Part shown: piece by piece, positions 464-14,559 of the stretch
Layout of the letters: each line of letters starts with the position of its first letter
How positions within the stretch are numbered: the stretch's first letter is position 1
Made by a program: the position numbers and the translations under genes
Notes under the pieces: generated by a model
Told to the model about the DNA's origin: nothing
Seen by the model: only the letters and a program-made list of their open reading frames with translations
Databases searched by the model: none
Assembly (NCBI GenBank): GCA_016932295.1
Contig: JAFGDC010000059.1
Location: 1-14,559, forward strand
DNA length: 14,559 bases
Direction of reading: 5' to 3'
DNA from: a candidate division CSSED10-310 bacterium
GTDB lineage: Bacteria; CSSED10-310; JAFGDC01

Positions 464-1144
464 CTATACCTCCACGGTCGTTTCCTGGCTGATGTAGGTC
501 AAGCCCCGGATCCCATCCACCTTTTTCAATTCCTGAACAAGCAGGTTCGAGCCGTCCGGATCGGCCAGTTTGACTTGGTAGGAATAATCAACCGCGTTGT
601 GTTGAGCCACATCCCGCATCGTGACGAGGGCGAAGTGCCTGGTGCACTTTTTCAATATTCGCGCGATCTGGTCGGCTGCGCCCTGTTCGGTGGGCACCTG
701 GAAGCGTACCATGCCGTCATGAGCCCGCCTCGTGCCGAAATCCAGCAGGTGCAACAGCACGGCGACGATGCTGAAGAATACGCCACCCAGGAGCGCGGTG
801 GGATAACTCTGCACGCCAGCGGCCACGCCGACACCGAAGGCAGCGAAGAGGAAGACCAGGTCGCGCGGGTCCCGAAGGTTGGTCCTGAAGCGGATGACCG
901 CCAGTGAGCCGACGATGCCGATGCCCCTGGCAACGTTGTCGCCGATGGCGATCATGAGCAGGCAAGAGATCAAACTTCCCAGGATCATGGCCTGAACAAG
1001 GCCTCGCGAGTAGGACAGGCCGCGGAAGGTGCGGGTATACACCACCGCCACCAGGGTGGACATCAGGAACGCAACCAGGAACGAGAGCAGCGCAACATGC
1101 CACTCGAGCTGCATCACTCCATAATTGGACAATAGCATTTCCAT
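464..1144 (-). CDS. DUF4956 family integral membrane protein
   Basis: 226 residues. Four hydrophobic helices are visible at about 17-36, 49-68, 95-111 and 116-134, followed by a soluble C-terminal domain (about 145-226) with an alternating alpha/beta look similar to small ACT/MgtC-C-type domains. The strongest family mark is the polar stretch between helices 2 and 3, containing IRFRTNLRDPRDLVF, typical of DUF4956. Members are often found beside CotH kinases and VTC-type polyphosphate polymerases in other bacteria (recalled family knowledge). A CotH kinase heads this same operon, but no VTC gene is visible. Start ATG 1144 has AAGGA eight bases upstream and lies 19 bases after the preceding stop. 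The biochemical role is not established; a membrane partner for nucleotide, phosphate or polyphosphate handling is an inference. Confidence 0.85.
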   Translation of the reverse strand: MEMLLSNYGVMQLEWHVALLSFLVAFLMSTLVAVVYTRTFRGLSYSRGLVQAMILGSLISCLLMIAIGDNVARGIGIVGSLAVIRFRTNLRDPRDLVFLFAAFGVGVAAGVQSYPTALLGGVFFSIVAVLLHLLDFGTRRAHDGMVRFQVPTEQGAADQIARILKKCTRHFALVTMRDVAQHNAVDYSYQVKLADPDGSNLLVQELKKVDGIRGLTYISQETTVEV

Positions 1145-1163
1145 GGGTGTTTCCTTGTTTCAG

Positions 1164-2951
1164 CTACTCGTAGCTGAATTCGGCTGATTGAAGATCGCCG
1201 ATCAGGTTGTAGGTTCCCGATACCATGGCGGCGCCGTAGAATACCAGCCCGGTCCCCGCGCCAGTTCCCTGGGGCCACGTGAAATCGAGTGCCGGTTCGA
1301 GTATGCCGTTGCCTGGATAAACGATGAAGTTTTCGAATCCGAGGCCCTGGTCCAGCGGCGTCCATTGGGGCCAAGAGAAATACGCGCCGCCCACATCGAG
1401 CAGCAGATACACATCGGTCGAATAGGCGGCGTTGGCTGGCCAGAGGTAGAAGTACACGTGGCACCGGTCTCCCGCCGACAGCATCCTGTCATCCATGAAC
1501 AGGGTCATCCCGGTTGAGCTGTTCGGAACGTTGCCCGAACCCGGGGTCGGCAGCGATTGTACACACCAGTTATCGGTTCCATCCGGGAACCGCCCGCAGG
1601 AACTGTCCGTCTCCTGCTCTTCGAACGCCACGTAATCAATGCAGGTAATGCCATCGGGATGATACACCTGGAGCACCTCGCCGCTTTTGACCAGTTTGAA
1701 ATTGGTGTGCAACGGCCCCTGCTCGCTCTCGTCGTCCGCCCAGAACAGCAGGTACCCGTGAGCCGGGATGGAGATGCCCTGGGGGATGGGATATTTCGTG
1801 GGATCGGCGGGATCATCCGAGAGGTACATGCCGCTGAGATCGACGGATACCGATTCAGCATTATAGAGTTCGAGCCAGTCCGGATACTGGCCGGGATCGT
1901 CCGGGTCCTCTATCGTTGTCGCGTTGTCCGCCATGAATTCGTTGATGTAGAGCGCAACCGCCGGATAATCGGGATCCTGGTTGGCGCCGCCGGGAGTGGC
2001 TTCGCTGAGATGCCGCCATTCGCCATTTCCATCCGGCAGCCGTCCCCAGCTCAGGTCCCGGCCGAGAGTGCCGAACGTCGTCTCGTCGATCGTATAACCG
2101 TTGCAGATCAAGTAAATGCTTTCGCCCGTGGAACTCAGTTTGAACGTGGTGTGCAACGGTCCCTGGTCGCTTTCGTCATCCGCCAGAAACACCAGAAAAC
2201 CATGGGCGGCTATCGTCACGCCGGCCGGGATCTCGTACTTGTTCGGTTCCGCCGGGTCGTCGGATAAGTACATGCCCGACAGATCGATCTCAAAGGATTC
2301 GCCGTTGTATAATTCGATCCAATCGGGGTATTCGCCCGGTTCCTGGGGATCCTCCAGGCAACTGAAATTATCCGCCATGACCTCGTTCAGGAACAACCCG
2401 AAAACCGGCGGTTCCGGATCCTGGTTGGGTAAGCCGGGAGTGGCCGCCCCCATGATTTTCCAATCACCCGAAAGATCAGGCCATCGGCCCCAACTGACGT
2501 CCGTGCCCAGGGCGGGAAACCTTGTGGAATCGAGTATGGTGGCGCCATCAAGAAGATACACCGCCTCACCATCGGAGGTGAGCTTGAAGGGTGCGTGCAG
2601 CGCCCCCTGCTCAGGTTCGTCGTCCGCCCAGACGATGAGATAGTCTCCTGGAGTGAGCGATATGGCCGGGAAAAGAAAGGCCTGGGGATTCTCGAGGTTG
2701 TCGGTGAGGGCCAATCCAGTGAGGTCGATGGTCACTGAACCGGCATTTCCTATCTCGATCCAGTCGTCATATTCACCTGCGTCGTCGGCGATTGTCGAAT
2801 CGTTTGCCGCCATCAGCTCATTGAGAACCAGGCCGTTGCACCTGGCGGTTCCGGGCAGCCCGGCGGCCAGCAGGCAGCCCGTGAGGAAAATCACGGCGCC
2901 GGATCGCAGCAGGCCCTGGTGACCCTTCAGTGCGAGCAGCTTAGTAACCAT
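1164..2951 (-). CDS. Secreted protein with three lamin-tail domains and the shared C-terminal domain
   Basis: 595 residues from ATG 2951. I prefer this start because GAGGGA lies about 10 bases upstream and it leads straight into a signal peptide (hydrophobic at about 18-36). An ATG at 2993 would overlap the upstream stop and has no clear ribosome site. Three lamin-tail (LTD) repeats follow at about 40-178, 185-326 and 333-475. Each has LNE(L/V/F)MA(A/D)N, a DW(I/L)E(I/L) core, WADDE or ADDES, and a WGR/CGR-P-D plus TPG...N ending. Repeats 2 and 3 are very similar (both with DLSGMYLSDDPA), pointing to a recent internal duplication. Residues about 480-595 are the tail shared with three other operon proteins (GDRC, DVYLLLDV, ALDFTWP, IGDLQSAEFSYE). 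No catalytic motif is seen; a structural, adhesive or ligand-binding surface role is inferred. Confidence 0.85.
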   Translation of the reverse strand: MVTKLLALKGHQGLLRSGAVIFLTGCLLAAGLPGTARCNGLVLNELMAANDSTIADDAGEYDDWIEIGNAGSVTIDLTGLALTDNLENPQAFLFPAISLTPGDYLIVWADDEPEQGALHAPFKLTSDGEAVYLLDGATILDSTRFPALGTDVSWGRWPDLSGDWKIMGAATPGLPNQDPEPPVFGLFLNEVMADNFSCLEDPQEPGEYPDWIELYNGESFEIDLSGMYLSDDPAEPNKYEIPAGVTIAAHGFLVFLADDESDQGPLHTTFKLSSTGESIYLICNGYTIDETTFGTLGRDLSWGRLPDGNGEWRHLSEATPGGANQDPDYPAVALYINEFMADNATTIEDPDDPGQYPDWLELYNAESVSVDLSGMYLSDDPADPTKYPIPQGISIPAHGYLLFWADDESEQGPLHTNFKLVKSGEVLQVYHPDGITCIDYVAFEEQETDSSCGRFPDGTDNWCVQSLPTPGSGNVPNSSTGMTLFMDDRMLSAGDRCHVYFYLWPANAAYSTDVYLLLDVGGAYFSWPQWTPLDQGLGFENFIVYPGNGILEPALDFTWPQGTGAGTGLVFYGAAMVSGTYNLIGDLQSAEFSYE

Positions 2952-2985
2952 TCCCACGGTATCCCTCGCGCTGTAACAGCCGGTG

Positions 2986-5034
2986 CTATTCATAGCCGAA
3001 CTCGATGCTCTGGAGGTCGCCGATCAGGGTGAATGTACCCGCCTGGAACGCGGCACCTACGAAATAGAGGCCATAGACAGGCTGCGGCGTTTCCGGCCAG
3101 GTGAAGTCCAGCACGTCTTCGGCATAGTGATCGCCGGCCTCGAGCGTGTAGTTCACATATGCCAGATCGTCGCCCGATGGTTCCCAGGCCGGCCAGAACC
3201 AGTAAGCGCCGAACACATCCAGGACGATGTAGACATCGTACGAGGTGAGTATGGGTTGCGGTCCGAGGGTGAAGTGCAGGTAGCACCTGTCGCCGGCAGT
3301 CAGCAGGGTGTCCTCCATGGTGAGGATGAGCCCTGCTTCGGGGGCCGGAGAGGCGGTCGCCACCGGAGATGCGGTCGGCGGCGGGGGAGAGGGAGTGTCG
3401 GGGATGGTGGTTGGGGGCGGGCTCGGCGTTGAGGTAGGGGATGGGGAAGGTGACGGAGATGACGATGGGGTCCGGGTCGACGTGCGTGTGGCAGTCCGGG
3501 TGGGGGTGTAGGTGGAGGTGCTCACCGGTGTGTTGGTGGCTGTCCCGGTCGGGTTCGCGGTGCCGGTGAAGGTCGGCGTGCGCGTCGGCGTCATGGTGGC
3601 GGTGCCGGGGATGGGAGTCGGCGTTGCCGTGACCGTGTAGTAAGGGGTGGCGGTGAATGTCGGTGTCCGGGTGGGGGTCCTGGTGGGGGTTCTTGTCGGT
3701 GTCGGTGAAGGGGAGAGCGTACGGGTGGGCGTCCGGGTCGGGGTGGACGTGAACACGGAACCAGGGGTCGGAGTCGGTGTCACCGCATCCCAGTACCGTT
3801 CGGCGCGAGCCAGTTCCGAGGTTGAATAGGACCACTCCACTGTCCCCGAAGAACTGACTTCGAAAATGTATCCGGTGGTGCCTTCTGTGATCAGCGTGTT
3901 GCCGTTCGGCAGGCGGTAACACCCGCCCAGGTGCTGGCTGTAGAAAGTGCCCGGATCGGAGTAGCTCCATGCTGGTCCATCGGGTCCGAAGGGTTCCCCA
4001 TCCTCAATGTCATAATTGCCGTCTCCACGCAGCGGCGGTGCAATTTCCTCCGCGCTCGAGTAGTCATTGGCCGACCCAGATCGATCGCCGTTGTTGAGGA
4101 TGAGTATGTTGCCGGCGCCCGGCAGGCCGTCATCGATCCAGTTCACTCCATGGCACACGTAGAAGTGCTTGTTGGCGGAACCTCCGCGGTCGTAGTTCTG
4201 GGGGTTGCCCCAGCGATACAGGAGGTCCCCACCCTTGCCGCAGTTGCCGCCGGAATGGCCCGCCGCTTCCGCGGTCGTGGTGCTGTGATCAATAATATAA
4301 AGCTCGTGAAGATTGTGAGACGAGATCACTATCTGATCCAGATTGGGATTGTAATCGATGGAATTGATATGCTCCCAGTCGCCGCCGCCGGCGCCGATGC
4401 TTCCTGCGTTGATGTCCAGCAACTCCGGATGATCGGCGACCACGCCGTAATTGGGCTTGTTCGAGTCGGCATCCTGGATCAGGTGATCCCACATGTGCCA
4501 TGTCCATACCACCGTTCCACCACTGGTGCCGGAGGGCTGAACCTCCTCGATCATGGTGGGCCACATTTCACCGTAAATGCTCGTGCGCCCCATGGCCTGC
4601 GCTTCCGAACGTGTCTTCAATTCCCAGCAGACCATCAGCACATTGCCGTTCGGCATGGGCTGGATGTCATGATGCTGCTGGTGCGTCGAGTCTGAGCAGT
4701 AGTAGTCCCAGACCACCATGTCGCTTGAATTTATCCGCTGGATGCGGCCCCCGACGCCACCGCCGAAAAAATGCCCCCCGGAATCGGCGCAGGGCCTCAA
4801 AATCGAATCGTCTGAAAGCAGGTAGGCAAGCATCCCGGGTGCTGACGATCCATGATACGTTCGTATGGTGGCGCCGCTCATGTCGATCAGAATGGAACTG
4901 CTCGAATTGTTGCGGGATACTAGTGTGCGCCCTTCATAGGCGTCCCTGCCTCCCCCTGCGGCAGCGACGGCTGCCGTTAGGAACAAACAGAGAACCGTCA
5001 ACAGCATGCTCATAGATGTCGATTTCCGTTTCAA
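2986..5034 (-). CDS. Arylsulfotransferase-family (ASST-like) secreted beta-propeller, second copy, long TP-rich linker
   Basis: 682 residues from a TTG start at 5034. That start is chosen because AAGGAG sits nine bases upstream and gives a clean signal peptide (MKRKSTSMSMLL..., hydrophobic to about 26). Alternatives are ATG 5094, overlapping the upstream stop as TGATG, and ATG 5013. Residues about 30-415 match arylsulfotransferase propellers: THQQHHDIQPMPNGN (His 118, 121, 122), GDWEHINSIDYNPNLDQI (His 222), YVCHGVNW (His 295) and SQHLGGCYRLPNGN (His 368). Periplasmic ASST enzymes move sulfate from a phenolic donor to a phenolic acceptor through a sulfo-histidine. Which His is catalytic here cannot be fixed by eye. 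A Thr/Pro/Arg/Ser linker of about 148 residues (419-566) follows, then the shared C-terminal domain (568-682). It is a clear paralogue of the gene just upstream. Substrate unknown. Confidence 0.85.
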   Translation of the reverse strand: MKRKSTSMSMLLTVLCLFLTAAVAAAGGGRDAYEGRTLVSRNNSSSSILIDMSGATIRTYHGSSAPGMLAYLLSDDSILRPCADSGGHFFGGGVGGRIQRINSSDMVVWDYYCSDSTHQQHHDIQPMPNGNVLMVCWELKTRSEAQAMGRTSIYGEMWPTMIEEVQPSGTSGGTVVWTWHMWDHLIQDADSNKPNYGVVADHPELLDINAGSIGAGGGDWEHINSIDYNPNLDQIVISSHNLHELYIIDHSTTTAEAAGHSGGNCGKGGDLLYRWGNPQNYDRGGSANKHFYVCHGVNWIDDGLPGAGNILILNNGDRSGSANDYSSAEEIAPPLRGDGNYDIEDGEPFGPDGPAWSYSDPGTFYSQHLGGCYRLPNGNTLITEGTTGYIFEVSSSGTVEWSYSTSELARAERYWDAVTPTPTPGSVFTSTPTRTPTRTLSPSPTPTRTPTRTPTRTPTFTATPYYTVTATPTPIPGTATMTPTRTPTFTGTANPTGTATNTPVSTSTYTPTRTATRTSTRTPSSSPSPSPSPTSTPSPPPTTIPDTPSPPPPTASPVATASPAPEAGLILTMEDTLLTAGDRCYLHFTLGPQPILTSYDVYIVLDVFGAYWFWPAWEPSGDDLAYVNYTLEAGDHYAEDVLDFTWPETPQPVYGLYFVGAAFQAGTFTLIGDLQSIEFGYE
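3337..3780 (-). repeat. Low-complexity Thr/Pro-rich linker-coding repeats (long version)
   Basis: This stretch encodes TPTRTPTRT-type and SPSPSP-type repeats joining the propeller to the C-terminal domain in the second arylsulfotransferase. On the plus strand it reads as G-rich GGTGT/CGGGT runs, a strong strand asymmetry. The equivalent linker in the upstream paralogue is only about 41 residues, so the array has expanded or contracted since duplication, probably by slippage. Ser/Thr density makes it a possible glycosylation or wall-spanning spacer (inference). Confidence 0.85.
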
Positions 5035-5093
5035 GATTCTTTGCTCCTTCTTTCTGTCACTGTCGCACCGGGGTTGCACCACAATCGTTGTCA

Positions 5094-6818
5094 TCAGGAA
5101 TATGAGAATTCGATAACCTGCAGTTCTCCCAGCAGATCGAACGTGTCCCTGGCAAACGCCGCGCCATAGAACAAGAGCCCGGCGCCGGTCCCTTCCACCA
5201 TGGGCCACGTGAAATCGAGGACATCCTCAGCCACTGTCTCCCATGCATCGAGGGAATATGTCCCGTAATCGATGCCTTCATCCAGCGGTCGCCATTCGGG
5301 CCAGCACCAATACTCGCCGAACACGTCGAGCAGCAGGTAGACATCCATCTCCGTCGCATTGAGGCGCGGCCCGATCGTAAAATGCAGGTAGCACCTATCG
5401 CCGTAATCCAGATGATCATCCTCCAGCATCAGTCTCATGCCGTCTTCCATCGTAGCGGTGGGAGACATGGTGGGGAACGGCGTGTGGGTCGGTTCACCAT
5501 GCGGAACCGTTGACGTGAAGGTCGGCGTGGGTGTCGCTGTCCGCGTCGGCGTCGCCGACGGGGTCGTGGTCAGGGAATACTTGACGACCCGCGCCAGCTC
5601 GCCGGATACATCATGGTCCCACACCACCTGGCCGTTCGCGCTGACCTCGAACATGTATCCCGAGGTGCCTTCGGTGATGATGGTGTTGCCGTTGGGCAGC
5701 CGGTACGCGCCGCCGAGGTGGGATGAATAGAAGGTGCCCGGATCGGAGTAGGTCCAGACTGGCGCCGCCGGTCCGTAGGGTTGGCCGGACGTGATACTGT
5801 AGTTGCCGTCGGGCAGCAGCGGCGACACGATCTCTTCGGCGCTGGAGTAGTCGTTCGAGGAACCGGACCGGTCGCCGTTGTTGAGAATGAGGATGTGGCC
5901 GGCGCCCGGCAGGTCTTCATCGATCCAGTTGACGCCATGGCATACGTAGAAATGGCGGTTTGCCGAAGTGCCGCGGTCGTAGTTCTGGGGATTGCCCCAG
6001 CGGTACAGGAGATCGCCGCCCTTGCCGCAGTTGCCGCCTGCATGACTCGCCGCTTCCGCCGTCGTGGTGCCGTGATCGATGATGTAGAATTCATCGAGGG
6101 TATGGGAAGAGATGACTATCTGATCGAGGACCGGGTTGTAATCGATGGCGTTGATATGCTCCCAGTCGCCGCTGCCGCCGCTGAGGGACCCGACGTTGAT
6201 GTCCAGCAGCTCCGGATGGTCGGCGATGACACCGTAGTTCGGTTTGCCTGAGTCCGCGTCCTGGATGAGATGATCCCACATGTGCCACTCCCAGATCACG
6301 GTGCCGCCGCTGGTTCCTGAGGGCTGGACTTCGGCGATTTTCGTGGGCCACATGTCGCCCATGACGGAGGTCCGGCCCATGGCCTGGGCCTCCGTCCGCG
6401 TCTTGCGCTCCCAGCAGACCAGCAGGATGTTGCCGTTCGGCATGACCGCTATGTCGTGATGTTGCTGATGTTCGGTAGTGGAGAAGGTGAAGTCCCAGAC
6501 GACCATGTCGGAGGCGTTGATCAGTTGCAGCCTGCCGCCCGATCCTCCGCCACCGAAAGTCGAATTGAAGGTCTGACTGGTCCGCAGGATGGAATCGTCG
6601 GAAAACCAATAGGCCACCTGTCCGGGCTGGCTCGCTCCATGCCACGTCTTTATGGTGCTGCCGTTCATGTCGATCATGATGGTGCTGCTGGAATTCAGCC
6701 TGGATATCAGGGTCTTGCCCTCGAACGGATCGTCGGCGTAGACGCCTGACGCCAACCGGCAAACGACGATCGCCGCAACCAGGAAACTCCATGTCCTAGC
6801 GGCAGAGATTCCGATCAT
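5094..6818 (-). CDS. Arylsulfotransferase-family (ASST-like) secreted beta-propeller, first copy
   Basis: 574 residues. ATG 6818 is well supported: AAGGAGG is seven bases upstream and a signal peptide follows (hydrophobic about 10-27, VYADD near the cleavage site). The open frame extends much further upstream, but that part overlaps the CotH gene and is not protein-like. Propeller residues about 30-415 carry EHQQHHDIAVMPNGN (His 117, 120, 121), GDWEHINAIDYNPVLDQI (His 221), GGDLLYRWGNP, YVCHGVNW (His 294) and SSHLGGAYRLPNGN (His 367), the recurring His-containing blade motifs of the Arylsulfotrans families. A short TP-rich linker (417-457) leads to the shared C-terminal domain (459-574). It lies 58 bases after cotH and its stop overlaps an ATG of the next frame. 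The predicted reaction is sulfate transfer between phenolic compounds outside the inner membrane; a non-enzymatic propeller is the main alternative. Confidence 0.87.
   Translation of the reverse strand: MIGISAARTWSFLVAAIVVCRLASGVYADDPFEGKTLISRLNSSSTIMIDMNGSTIKTWHGASQPGQVAYWFSDDSILRTSQTFNSTFGGGGSGGRLQLINASDMVVWDFTFSTTEHQQHHDIAVMPNGNILLVCWERKTRTEAQAMGRTSVMGDMWPTKIAEVQPSGTSGGTVIWEWHMWDHLIQDADSGKPNYGVIADHPELLDINVGSLSGGSGDWEHINAIDYNPVLDQIVISSHTLDEFYIIDHGTTTAEAASHAGGNCGKGGDLLYRWGNPQNYDRGTSANRHFYVCHGVNWIDEDLPGAGHILILNNGDRSGSSNDYSSAEEIVSPLLPDGNYSITSGQPYGPAAPVWTYSDPGTFYSSHLGGAYRLPNGNTIITEGTSGYMFEVSANGQVVWDHDVSGELARVVKYSLTTTPSATPTRTATPTPTFTSTVPHGEPTHTPFPTMSPTATMEDGMRLMLEDDHLDYGDRCYLHFTIGPRLNATEMDVYLLLDVFGEYWCWPEWRPLDEGIDYGTYSLDAWETVAEDVLDFTWPMVEGTGAGLLFYGAAFARDTFDLLGELQVIEFSYS
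5448..5570 (-). repeat. Low-complexity Thr/Pro-rich linker-coding stretch (short version)
   Basis: Encodes about 41 residues (TTTPSATPTRTATPTPTF and further TP repeats) between the propeller and the C-terminal domain of the first arylsulfotransferase-like protein. Same composition as the long linker of the downstream paralogue. Confidence 0.8.
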
Positions 6819-6876
6819 ACTCCAACCTCCTTGGTCGCAATCACCGTTAGAGGCAGCCGTTGCTGATCCGTATGAG

Positions 6877-9474
6877 TCACCGGTACCCGAATTCCATGAC
6901 TTGGTATGCGCCGACGAGGTCGAAGGTGCCTGCCTGGAACGCCGCTCCATAGAAATACAATCCGGTGAATGATCCATCGACGTACGGCCATTCAAACACA
7001 AGCGCATCGACTGCCGGCATCGTCCATGCCGGCATGTCGTAGCGTTGAAAATCCAGTCCTTCCTCCAGCGGCTGCCACGATGGCCAGCACCAGTAGGAAT
7101 CACCGACTCCCAGCAGGATGTAGGCATCCAGGACGGCGTCCCCTGAATGCGGACCGAGGGTGAAATGCAGATCGAACAGGTCACCCTGAACGAGATCCCT
7201 GTCCTCCAGGAACAGGGTCATGCCATCCGAGGTGGGGCAGGCGGAGTTGTTGGTCGCGCCGGGAGTGCCTTCACCGAGCATCGCCCAGTCCGTGCCGCCG
7301 TCTGGACAGCGCCCGCAGGATATGTTGGTGCTTTGCGCGGCATAGGTCAGGCTGTCGATCGCGGTGACACCGTCAGCGCCGTAGAGTCCGATGGCGCCCC
7401 CTTCCTTCGACAATTTGAAGTTGGTGTGCAGATCGCCCTGCTCCTCGTCATCGTCACAGAAAAAGACCAGGAACCCGCCGGCCGTGACGACGAGATCGGG
7501 GATCATCCATTTCGTCGTGTGATAGAGTGAATCCGTCAGATACATACCCGCCAGGTTGACCGGTTCGGTTCCCGCGTTATGAAGCTCCAGCCAGTCTTCG
7601 TGTTCACCCGCTTCATCCGGATACACACTGGTGTTGGCTGCCATGAATTCGTTGATGAACAGGTTCAGGCCGGCGGTGGGGGAGACGTTCGCAGCCCCGG
7701 CCGTGCCATATGGCAGGCGCATCCAGCCGCCACTCCCGTCGGGCCATCTCCCCCAGACCGAATCCGCGGGGAGCGGCGGGTACTCGACGGTGTCGATGAG
7801 CGCATACTCGTCGGTAACAATATGTAAGAACAGTTCGCCTCCCTGCGGATCCAGGGAGAATGGCGCGTGATCGACGCCTTCAATCGTTTCACTGTCCATC
7901 CACAGGACTTCGAAACCACCATCCTGGATGTCAAGGGAAGGAAGTCGCCATTTGTCCGGAACCGAGATCTCATCGGTGAGATACATACCGGTGGTGGTTA
8001 CCAGGCCAGGTCCCAGGTTGTACAGTTCCAGCCATGGATCATGATCGCCGGCGCTGTCGGTGATCGAATGAGCGTTGACGGCCATCAGTTCATTCAGCCT
8101 GATATCGCTCGTCATGGCCAGTTCATCCAGCTCCGTTTTGACGAAGTCATGCCGATCGGCGACAAAACGCTTCAATCCGATTGCCCGGCCGACATCATTC
8201 GCCAGTCCCTGTTCGAATTCCTCGTTGGTGTAGTCCTTCCTGGTGTCCGCGTACACATCCTCCCGGATGATATCCGCCAGTTCATCTATACGAGAATCCA
8301 TGACCTCGGAGCTGAAACCCTCACGGAGCATCCGGGCCAGGGCGCGGTAATGATTCCGCACCAGCAGGGGCGAGTTCCACGATCTATCCGCCAGCGGCCT
8401 GCCGTATCCAGTCGTGTCCCGCCAGACCAGCGGCACCCCGGTCATGTCGAATGTGTCGGGGAAATACGAGGTGTACGTGGCGAATGCCATGTTGCAATCC
8501 CACAGCAGGTGTACAAAGCGGCCGTCGAAATCGCGGTGATACAGGTAATAGTTGTGGGCGGGTCCGATATAGGCATCCAGGTTGACGAACAGGATCGTGG
8601 CAGCGAACTGCCACACCATGGCATCGGTGTCCATGATGATGGGCAGCAGCGCGTCGAAATCCCCGTCGGGGGTGTTGTTCAATGCATCGATGACAGCAAT
8701 GAGATCCGTCCAGTCATCCAGGCTCTCGTTGGTCTTCTTCTCATAATACTCGGCATAGGTGGCGGGATCGTCCCCCCAGTAGTTCAGGTCGGCCATGTAC
8801 TCGCCTTTGTACAGGTTGCCATCTTCGCTTTCACCGTAGAGCCGGTCGCAGAATGTTCCATCGATCTGTTCAGCGGCGGTGAAGATCCCCCATGGTTCGC
8901 CGTTGATGATGACGCGGACGAATACCGCCCTGTGCGCGGGGGTGAACGCGGTGACGAAGTCAAGGAAAAGCTTCTCCCGAAGCATTGTCGGATCGCGGAA
9001 ATTGTTGTTCAGATTCAACTTCTTCAGACCAAGAAAGGTGCCTTCCGGATCCAGTTCATTGAAATCGATCTTGAATGATTTTTTCTCACCCGAATCCCAG
9101 AACGACGAGTGCCCCTTGAACCTGGCCCCGATCGGATCGACCGTGATGACCTCGGCCCCGTCCATGTAGTCCCACCGACAGGGCAGGTAGAAATCATCAT
9201 CGCCGATTACATAAGCGGTGTACAACGTGTTGTACCAATCACTGTCCTCGAAAGTGAGATGAATTTCATGGACATACGATTCATCGAAAAACGCGTCCGC
9301 ATCGTCCGCCATGGCAGTGGCGAGACAGGAGAACAGGCTGAGCACGGCGAGCGCTGGAATGACAAAACCACGGCGCCAGCAGTTACGGGCGACACGAATC
9401 CCGCTGCGCCCGGTGGCAGGGAAGCGCCGGTAGTTCGACCCGTCAATGGAGTTGCCTGTTGAAATAAACTGCAT
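6877..9474 (-). CDS. CotH-family secretory kinase with two lamin-tail domains and the shared C-terminal domain
   Basis: 865 residues from ATG 9474, chosen for GGAG eight bases upstream. The frame stays open to an ATG at 9633, but the extra 53 residues look non-coding. A basic N-region is followed by a hydrophobic segment at about 38-56 ending ATAMADD, a probable signal peptide. The CotH kinase domain covers about 66-450: ARFKGHSSF, KKSFKIDF (Lys 131-135), LKKLNLNNNFRDPTMLREKL, INGEPWGIFTAAEQID, and LLWDCNMAF at about 323-331, the expected metal/catalytic Asp motif. CotH proteins are atypical kinases that phosphorylate exported proteins. Two LTD repeats follow (about 457-595, LNELMAVN; and 602-742, INEFMAAN), then the shared tail (750-865). 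It is the first gene of the operon. Fusions of CotH to LTD domains are common in bacteria; the tail is what I do not recognise. The target protein is unknown; the tail-bearing neighbours are candidates. Confidence 0.88.
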   Translation of the reverse strand: MQFISTGNSIDGSNYRRFPATGRSGIRVARNCWRRGFVIPALAVLSLFSCLATAMADDADAFFDESYVHEIHLTFEDSDWYNTLYTAYVIGDDDFYLPCRWDYMDGAEVITVDPIGARFKGHSSFWDSGEKKSFKIDFNELDPEGTFLGLKKLNLNNNFRDPTMLREKLFLDFVTAFTPAHRAVFVRVIINGEPWGIFTAAEQIDGTFCDRLYGESEDGNLYKGEYMADLNYWGDDPATYAEYYEKKTNESLDDWTDLIAVIDALNNTPDGDFDALLPIIMDTDAMVWQFAATILFVNLDAYIGPAHNYYLYHRDFDGRFVHLLWDCNMAFATYTSYFPDTFDMTGVPLVWRDTTGYGRPLADRSWNSPLLVRNHYRALARMLREGFSSEVMDSRIDELADIIREDVYADTRKDYTNEEFEQGLANDVGRAIGLKRFVADRHDFVKTELDELAMTSDIRLNELMAVNAHSITDSAGDHDPWLELYNLGPGLVTTTGMYLTDEISVPDKWRLPSLDIQDGGFEVLWMDSETIEGVDHAPFSLDPQGGELFLHIVTDEYALIDTVEYPPLPADSVWGRWPDGSGGWMRLPYGTAGAANVSPTAGLNLFINEFMAANTSVYPDEAGEHEDWLELHNAGTEPVNLAGMYLTDSLYHTTKWMIPDLVVTAGGFLVFFCDDDEEQGDLHTNFKLSKEGGAIGLYGADGVTAIDSLTYAAQSTNISCGRCPDGGTDWAMLGEGTPGATNNSACPTSDGMTLFLEDRDLVQGDLFDLHFTLGPHSGDAVLDAYILLGVGDSYWCWPSWQPLEEGLDFQRYDMPAWTMPAVDALVFEWPYVDGSFTGLYFYGAAFQAGTFDLVGAYQVMEFGYR

Positions 9475-13405: not shown

Positions 13406-13839
13406 TTCTGGTCCATCCTGGTCCGGTTCCCGGTCCACAGTGGTTCAAGCCATTGCGCACGGAGCCCGAACCGACGCTTCCGACCAGGGCGGGCCACCCT
13501 GGCTACTCTCTGGGACAATAAGAACGAACCTGAATCGTGACAACCTGCCACTACTACCATAGCGGTAAATCTCCGGCGTGCGCCTGACAGCAAAGCCCTG
13601 CGCGCCGCCGGGGATCGAAAAACCCAGAGAGGCGATGGAGAATCGCAACAAACTGTTGAATAAGGATAACGCTGACTAAGCGGATCTGAAAATTCGAGGC
13701 TTTGAAATTGTTACTCGAGGTGTTACGAAATCGTTTTCATTGCGTCTTTCCTCTATGTGTAGTCTTGGTGGAATGCCGATTGAATAGACCTGTTCGAAGT
13801 GAATCGCCTGTTCATGTGAAGACTCGAAAGGGGAACGCC

Positions 13840-14559
13840 ATGAGGATTGTTGGTGCACTGTTGGTGCGCATATCCTTGATGGTCTCGATTACCGGCGCCG
13901 GAACCATTACCGTCGGTCCCGGCGGCGAAGACTATGCAACCATCCAGGAAGCGTTACCAGCCGCGCATGGAGGTGATCTGGTGCTGGTTTCTCCAGGCAC
14001 CTGCAATGGGCCGATCACCATGGCCCGTGACGTACACCTCATGAGTGCGGGCTGCACCAGCGAAGTCTTCCTTTACAACCCTTGGTACAACGCCAGCCTC
14101 GAGACCGTGCTGGACGGCGGGGCGGTGGCACCGGTGTGCGCCTGGCCGAAGGAAGCACCCTCGAGGGCTTCACCATCACGTCCGGCGGCGATGGGTACGC
14201 CGTCTATGGGCTGTATGTCTCCGCCGCCGTGATCGGAAACAGAATCGTCGATAATCGGGTGGCGGCATCTACCATCTGGGCGGCGGCCTGATCCATAAGA
14301 ACCTGGTGGCGGACAATGAGGGGACAGGAATCGAGATCGCCTACTCCAATGCCTCGATCCACTTCAACACCGTGGCTGGTAATGCAGGTTCCGGGATCAC
14401 CGCCACCAACCTGCTCGAGCAGGTCAGCGTGGATCTCGGCGGCGGTCCGGTGATCCTGGCACAGAACCTGCGACACAATCCCGCCGGCGGCCTGAGCGCC
14501 TGCACGTACGGCAACGGCGTGACGCTGGCCATCACGCCGGATGTGCGGAACCGTCCGGA
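13840..14559 (+). pseudogene. Secreted right-handed beta-helix (pectin-lyase-fold) protein, frameshifted twice, runs off right edge
   Basis: ATG 13840 has AAAGGGG six bases upstream, then a signal peptide (MRIVGALLVRISLMVSITGAG) and the typical opening of DUF1565/beta-helix proteins: TITVGPGGEDYATIQEAL, DLVLVSPGTCNGPI. The frame then breaks near 14115-14128 in a G-rich run and continues in a second frame (GTGVRLAEGSTLEGFTITSG, VIGNRIVDNR). It breaks again near 14258 and continues in the third frame to the edge (GGIYHLGGGLIHKNLVADN, GTGIEIAYSNASIHFNTVAG). Both breaks fit one missing base each, so they are either real mutations or homopolymer-type sequencing errors. Restored, it is a normal N-terminal half of a beta-helix protein. 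These bind or cleave polysaccharides, or act as surface proteins; no catalytic site can be judged here. Whether it also ends in the shared C-terminal domain lies outside the window. Confidence 0.7.

Follow-up and report, generated by a model that had tools for sequence, protein, structure and literature searches.

In a 14,559-nucleotide stretch of DNA from a candidate division CSSED10-310 bacterium (assembly GCA_016932295.1, contig JAFGDC010000059.1, forward strand; hereafter the window), four different exported proteins end in the same domain of ∼110 residues, which matches no Pfam or NCBIfam model. This domain is hyperexpanded in one CSSED10-310 lineage. We tentatively read it as a putative lineage-specific C-terminal address or tether domain of the CSSED10-310 exported proteome that may be recognized by type II secretion. 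The domain itself, its position, copy number and predicted fold, and the genome content and gene order around it were computed directly; recognition, export and docking are steps that we infer. The four copies in the window are:

1167..1514, minus strand: C-terminal immunoglobulin (Ig)-like domain of the lamin-tail domain (LTD) protein (gene 1164-2993), from pairwise alignment and invariant columns.
2989..3333, minus strand: C-terminal Ig-like domain of arylsulfotransferase-like protein 1 (AST1; gene stop at 2986), from pairwise alignment and invariant columns.
5097..5444, minus strand: C-terminal Ig-like domain of arylsulfotransferase-like protein 2 (AST2), from alignment and an AlphaFold2 model (pLDDT 96.7).
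6880..7227, minus strand: C-terminal Ig-like domain of the CotH kinase/LTD protein, from pairwise alignment and invariant columns.

Each copy ends at the last codon before the stop, and the four align colinearly from end to end, with pairwise identities of 56/115, 54/114, 50/114, 62/114, 54/114 and 61/115 (44–54%) and 34 invariant columns. Alignment scores for the six pairs range from 250 to 335, whereas the best of 300 shuffles per pair scores 49–61. The four tails are one domain, as a first-pass annotation of the window, made from the letters alone, had proposed at these same coordinates. That annotation also described the tails as following unlike modules and as belonging to no named family, and both descriptions hold. 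In front of the tails, Pfam identifies LTDs, an arylsulfotransferase domain (twice) and a CotH kinase with an LTD, and equally different domains precede the tail in related proteins. The tails match no Pfam or NCBIfam model, sorting and binding families included; an NCBIfam search of the window proteins named no family, and we found no publication on this domain among open-licence papers.

The AST2 copy is modeled with confidence as an Ig-like β sandwich. Structure comparison returned generic Ig-like matches to modules of the CARDB, Fn3 and RbmA type, with which the domain shares its predicted fold but not its sequence, since none of 74 members matches a CARDB or Fn3 model in Pfam at E-values up to 0.5. 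A search of viral structures gave weak matches, three of them with E ≤ 0.001. The most conserved segment of the domain is a loop rather than the strands, and its Trp-Pro, between strands E and F, is invariant in all 74 rows of profile A4. This profile was built from the four window tails and 70 of the 96 copies scoring at least 75 bits in the CSSED10-310 metagenome-assembled genome (MAG) JAFGLW, referred to below as G001. In the window, the loop maps as follows:

5187..5207, minus strand: E–F loop of the AST2 copy (residues 80-86 of the domain, with the invariant Trp-Pro), placed by hand from the domain start.

Many aromatic residues are also conserved, and the first-pass annotation had accordingly suggested carbohydrate binding. 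One of the fold matches, a porphyran-binding module (Foldseek E 7.8e-4), would agree with such a role. However, the fold is a generic sandwich, no known carbohydrate-binding family in Pfam or NCBIfam matches the domain, and the domain is likewise found at the end of propellers, FG-GAP proteins and numerous peptidases, which makes a carbohydrate-binding module quite improbable. The copies are diverse, at 18–54% identity to the first row of A4. Such low identity is what might be expected of an inert structural cap or spacer that has no partner and was spread by gene-end recombination, and Ig-like modules often do serve as spacers. The concentration of conservation in a loop and the retention of the end position in two phyla argue otherwise, and we regard this as the least probable of the explanations weighed here.

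When GTDB species genomes were scanned with the four tails, two loci were detected, one in G001 and one in a Verrucomicrobiota MAG (G002); over whole genomes, the four-tail profile has 105 matches at E ≤ 1 in G001 and one in G002. With profile A4, five of the eight genomes of G001's phylum contain 110, 92, 61, 77 and 86 matches and the other three (G007, G008 and G009) contain none. Eight of 386 sampled relatives match when the best 12 candidates per genome are scored, namely the five hyperexpanded genomes and three others with remote copies, and G002 is the only 1 of 288 genomes in its own phylum to match when the best 16 are scored; because fewer candidates were scored, the zeros in these two samples are weaker than those in G001's phylum. 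The single G002 copy (L002:4387-6291), which follows a PQQ propeller, lies on a contig of 15 kb and may be misbinned or transferred. The closest match to the window tails in related genomes, at 48% identity, is in G003.

All of these genomes are MAGs or draft assemblies whose completeness is unstated, apart from that of G001, for which the available text of the Zodletone CSSED10-310 MAG announcement gives 2,515 genes and 82.85% completeness (PMC8248873). Taken with that gene number, the 104 distinct copies in G001, some of them fragments, mean that ∼4% of its genes encode the domain (PMC8248873). A remote sister version (profile A7) occurs in all four Coatesbacteria genomes searched, with 32–126 copies each among the best 150 candidates per genome. 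It resembles the CSSED10-310 domain in profile–profile comparison (probability 99.6, E 8.9e-24), in copy number and in being mostly C-terminal, but is only 15% identical, lacks the Trp-Pro loop and includes some N-terminal or tandem copies. In a set of 5.8 billion proteins, the AST2 tail retrieved only its own protein (1 of 112 candidates), and it was a G001 query, with 80 of 142 candidates, that opened up the family. A search of phage sequences with the tails found none, and a sequence search of solved structures gave nothing useful (best E 0.24; best E 0.67 with a profile).

The position of the domain is strongly conserved. Across 71 regions fetched from G001, 108 open reading frames (ORFs) carry a copy, of which four are duplicates from overlapping regions; in 96 of the 104 distinct copies, no more than 4 residues separate the domain from the stop, in 6 the distance is 8–28 residues, and 2 lie near the N-terminus. 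Likewise, the domain ends within 4 residues of the end in 75 of 81 proteins from the protein set (the window's own included). Four of the other six have an annotated FGE-sulfatase domain and a copy well before the end, one has 6 residues left and one is a partial match. In Coatesbacteria, the domain is C-terminal in 18 of 22 proteins with a visible stop. The earlier statement that the tail always occupies the extreme C-terminus is therefore correct for the window proteins but too strong for some of their relatives. An FGE-sulfatase domain repeatedly comes after non-terminal copies, both among CSSED10-310-type proteins and in Coatesbacteria (P0005, P0035, P0066, P0068; L128:236-1969). At L073:4763-7415, pieces of the domain are spread over three ORFs that overlap in different frames and are perhaps frameshifted or decaying genes.

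The proteins that carry the domain are diverse, and most have a signal-peptide-like start. A crude signal-peptide test was passed by 78 of 88 domain proteins, compared with 77 of the 191 long ORFs in these regions that lack the domain. In 57 of 85 proteins, the domain directly follows a Thr/Pro linker (at least 50% Thr/Pro across 20 residues), which none of the 191 other ORFs has at the matching place. In the window itself, the Thr/Pro-rich spacer noted by the first-pass annotation is present in both arylsulfotransferase-like proteins and absent from the LTD and CotH proteins. Among the families listed by Pfam for 98 of 100 G001 proteins are C25 peptidases (at least 9), subtilases (at least 9) and papain-like peptidases (at least 6), together with FG-GAP, kelch and β-helix repeats, M1, M6 and M14 peptidases, a peptidylarginine-deiminase-like domain and a GH18 domain. 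The profile searches that the annotation had recommended recovered copies in CSSED10-310 and Coatesbacteria that are mostly C-terminal; those of G001 are attached to varied domains and associated with signal peptides.

A lineage-specific C-terminal homology region that marks an exported set is also the hallmark of the GlyGly-CTERM and PEP-CTERM tails. Those tails are short and built on a membrane helix, whereas our domain is a folded β domain of 110 residues without a C-terminal membrane helix and basic end; the whole tail is β and its last residues are soluble (such as EFGWGE). Two G001 proteins do have a C-terminal membrane helix followed by basic residues (L066:152-4111, where the helix follows a Thr/Pro linker, and L001:6215-7453); these resemble PEP/IPTL-CTERM tails, and we take them to be a second C-terminal type in this genome. 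A membrane helix of the CTERM type is also described in the accessible portion of PMC12369372.

Since the behavior of the domain resembles that of type IX tails, type IX machinery was tested first. Like the type IX C-terminal domain (PF18962, Por_Secre_tail, and relatives), our domain is found at the extreme C-terminus, in many copies per genome and on diverse cargo that includes C25 peptidases and a peptidylarginine-deiminase-like protein. The type IX tail is itself Ig-like, and the model of our domain is an Ig-like sandwich. None of 74 members of our family, however, matches Por_Secre_tail in Pfam or NCBIfam at E-values up to 0.5. PF18962 has matches in 53 of 145 sampled genomes when the best 36 candidates per genome are scored, and none in G001, G004 or G005. 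No type IX tail structure was noticed among the fold matches listed for the AST2 model, although no direct comparison with one was made and this excludes nothing. As for the translocon, an initial search for SprA was silent even in the controls, but a repeat with a larger sample detected SprA_N in 78 of 290 sampled relatives and in none of the five genomes with the domain or G007–G009. PorV was found in 0 of 8 genomes, with a control that was also silent. These results make it improbable that the domain has diverged from a type IX tail and is recognized by a type IX-like translocon beyond the reach of the models used here. G003 has nine Por_Secre_tail matches without detectable SprA_N, which might reflect contamination, an incomplete assembly or a tail put to another use.

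Type II secretion genes, in contrast to SprA_N, were found in every genome with the domain. All five contain a type II secretin (GspD) above the curated cut-off, and near-complete type II operons could be read. In G001, contig C19 carries E, F and G (over cut-off), pseudopilin-, K- and L-like genes, M and D (over cut-off). After gspD comes a gene for a 380-residue protein with three Big_1/Invasin_D3 stretches, a Thr/Pro-rich end and, by eye, a lipoprotein-like signal, and 15 bases beyond this gene is one for a protein with PMP repeats and our domain. The G004 locus has the same order, and its corresponding domain protein is 30% identical. In G006, the lipoprotein gene has a convergent neighbor encoding an M6 peptidase with our domain, and this peptidase shares 63% identity with one next to the G004 locus; the G003 and G005 contigs stop inside the lipoprotein gene. 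At a second type II locus of G001 (C11), a gspC-like gene is preceded, 72 bases upstream and on its own strand, by a domain gene. In each of the five CSSED10-310 genomes that have the domain, gspD is followed by a Big_1/Invasin_D3 lipoprotein-like gene (5 of 5 such loci):

L147:11770-12909, L149:11884-13014 and L151:7274-8458: complete copies of the lipoprotein-like gene after gspD, with a Thr/Pro-rich end.
L148:1-903 and L150:1-576: copies of this gene shortened by contig ends.

In all four cases where a flank of the type II locus is visible, one of the genes next to it encodes the domain. The naive chance of finding a domain gene at 4 of 8 flanks is ∼2e-4, a value that is too kind because the flanks are related, the test is post hoc and domain genes are common.

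The proposal that type II secretion reads the domain as an address or tether draws on two kinds of precedent. Ig folds are established type II export signals elsewhere, at least in the accessible sections of two reports (PMC12369372, PMC7949064). The Ig fold of VesB exports a periplasmic reporter in a manner that depends on the GspC PDZ domain, and it is pulled down by the PDZ domain (PMC12369372); in the Fn3 domain of PelI/Pel3, two loops are secretion determinants (PMC7949064). Loops or fold carry export information in VesB, PelI/Pel3 and PulA, as described in these sections (PMC12369372, PMC7949064). Our domain resembles those of VesB and PelI/Pel3 and the PulA N-domain in its Ig-superfamily fold and in its occurrence on predicted Sec-exported proteins (PMC12369372, PMC7949064). 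It differs in that each precedent, as presented there, is one substrate with its own domain, whereas our family, known from sequence, ends dozens of unrelated proteins. Three features expected of a type II Ig signal are present: a likely Sec signal peptide, by the crude test and, for the four window proteins, by eye; a predicted Ig-like fold; and type II genes in the five genomes with the domain. The second precedent is InvL, an invasin-like lipoprotein that, according to the available part of its description, is displayed at the cell surface via type II secretion (PMC12802150), which makes the invasin-type lipoprotein of the operon a plausible co-substrate or dock.

In the mechanism we envisage, domain proteins would be carried across the inner membrane by Sec and would fold in the periplasm, where the GspC/GspD side of the type II system would recognize the domain, above all its invariant Trp-Pro loop, and carry the protein through the outer membrane. 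The domain would be retained as a soluble tail; together with the linker, it may keep the catalytic part on the cell surface, perhaps docked on the invasin-type lipoprotein encoded after gspD. The full version of this scheme, in which some candidate phyla have turned type II secretion into a general surface-display pathway through a transferable C-terminal domain, pickup by the Trp-Pro loop and docking on an operon-encoded lipoprotein, is a doubtful extrapolation. If true, it would provide a common, profile-recognizable type II secretion signal, a counterpart of the type IX tail.

Several observations weigh against a type II address. The secretin and the domain do not track each other, since three phylum members without the domain also have type II secretins. 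The flank count was made post hoc on related genomes in which domain genes are common, and two Coatesbacteria type II loci have no domain neighbor with either profile. Some type IX-type tails do occur (9 Por_Secre_tail matches in G003 and 1 in G006), and the absence of SprA may reflect MAG incompleteness, though it extends to five genomes. Finally, a few copies are N-terminal or have a further domain behind them.

The main rival is surface retention with no export role, the domain docking its protein on a surface or matrix receptor after export by any route, as would a dockerin or an adhesive Fn3/CARDB-like module. We consider this rather unlikely: the matches by fold are to generic modules, one would expect a pure binding module to be more variable in place than 96 of 104 copies at the very end, and the type II gene neighborhood would go unexplained. 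The first-pass interpretation is partly supported, in that the tail belongs to no named family, is strongly C-terminal, follows unlike modules and accompanies signal peptides, whereas sorting or anchoring is a putative role. Additions to it are the hyperexpansion, the occurrence in two phyla, a type IX translocon that went undetected and a link to type II operons. This domain, for which neither Pfam nor NCBIfam has a model, would label much of the exported proteome of two little-known phyla. Should type II secretion read it, these bacteria offer many natural substrates with one signal, and how that machine chooses its cargo could be tested directly; if its role is that of a tether alone, it still identifies their surface-attached proteins.

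In the window, the genes for the four proteins are codirectional, with intergenic gaps of 58, 80 and 34 bases at the starts judged likely, and a DUF4956 gene begins 19 bases beyond the LTD gene. This arrangement fits, without proving, a single operon. Promoter-like sites (3, compared with 4.1 in shuffles) and terminator-like sites (8, compared with 6.1, standard deviation 2.8) are not above shuffles in the window. The remaining features of these genes are:

9307..9474, minus strand: likely signal peptide of the CotH protein (start 9474), by eye.
6735..6818, minus strand: likely signal peptide of AST2 (start 6818), by eye.
4954..5013, minus strand: likely signal peptide of AST1 (start 5013), by eye.
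2838..2951, minus strand: likely signal peptide of the LTD protein (start 2951; 2993 also possible), by eye.
3334..3795, minus strand: Thr/Pro/Ser-rich linker before the AST1 domain, from sequence.
5451..5588, minus strand: Thr/Pro/Ser-rich linker before the AST2 domain, from sequence.
464..1144, minus strand: DUF4956 membrane protein, the next downstream gene and probably in the same operon, from ORF, Pfam and spacing.

CotH and DUF4956 thus stand within one gene array (464-9474). In streptococci and clostridia, CotH, a polyphosphate polymerase, DUF4956 and DUF4832 are found beside pel genes, according to the accessible part of PMC7112168. When the window's CotH protein was searched against 11 genomes, every match began no earlier than residue 733, apart from one in G007 (506-802), and the CotH kinase itself was therefore not found in these genomes. 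At 13702-14232 is the start of a further exported protein whose end lies outside the window; it has no Pfam match but resembles, by eye, the β-helix cargo of G001.
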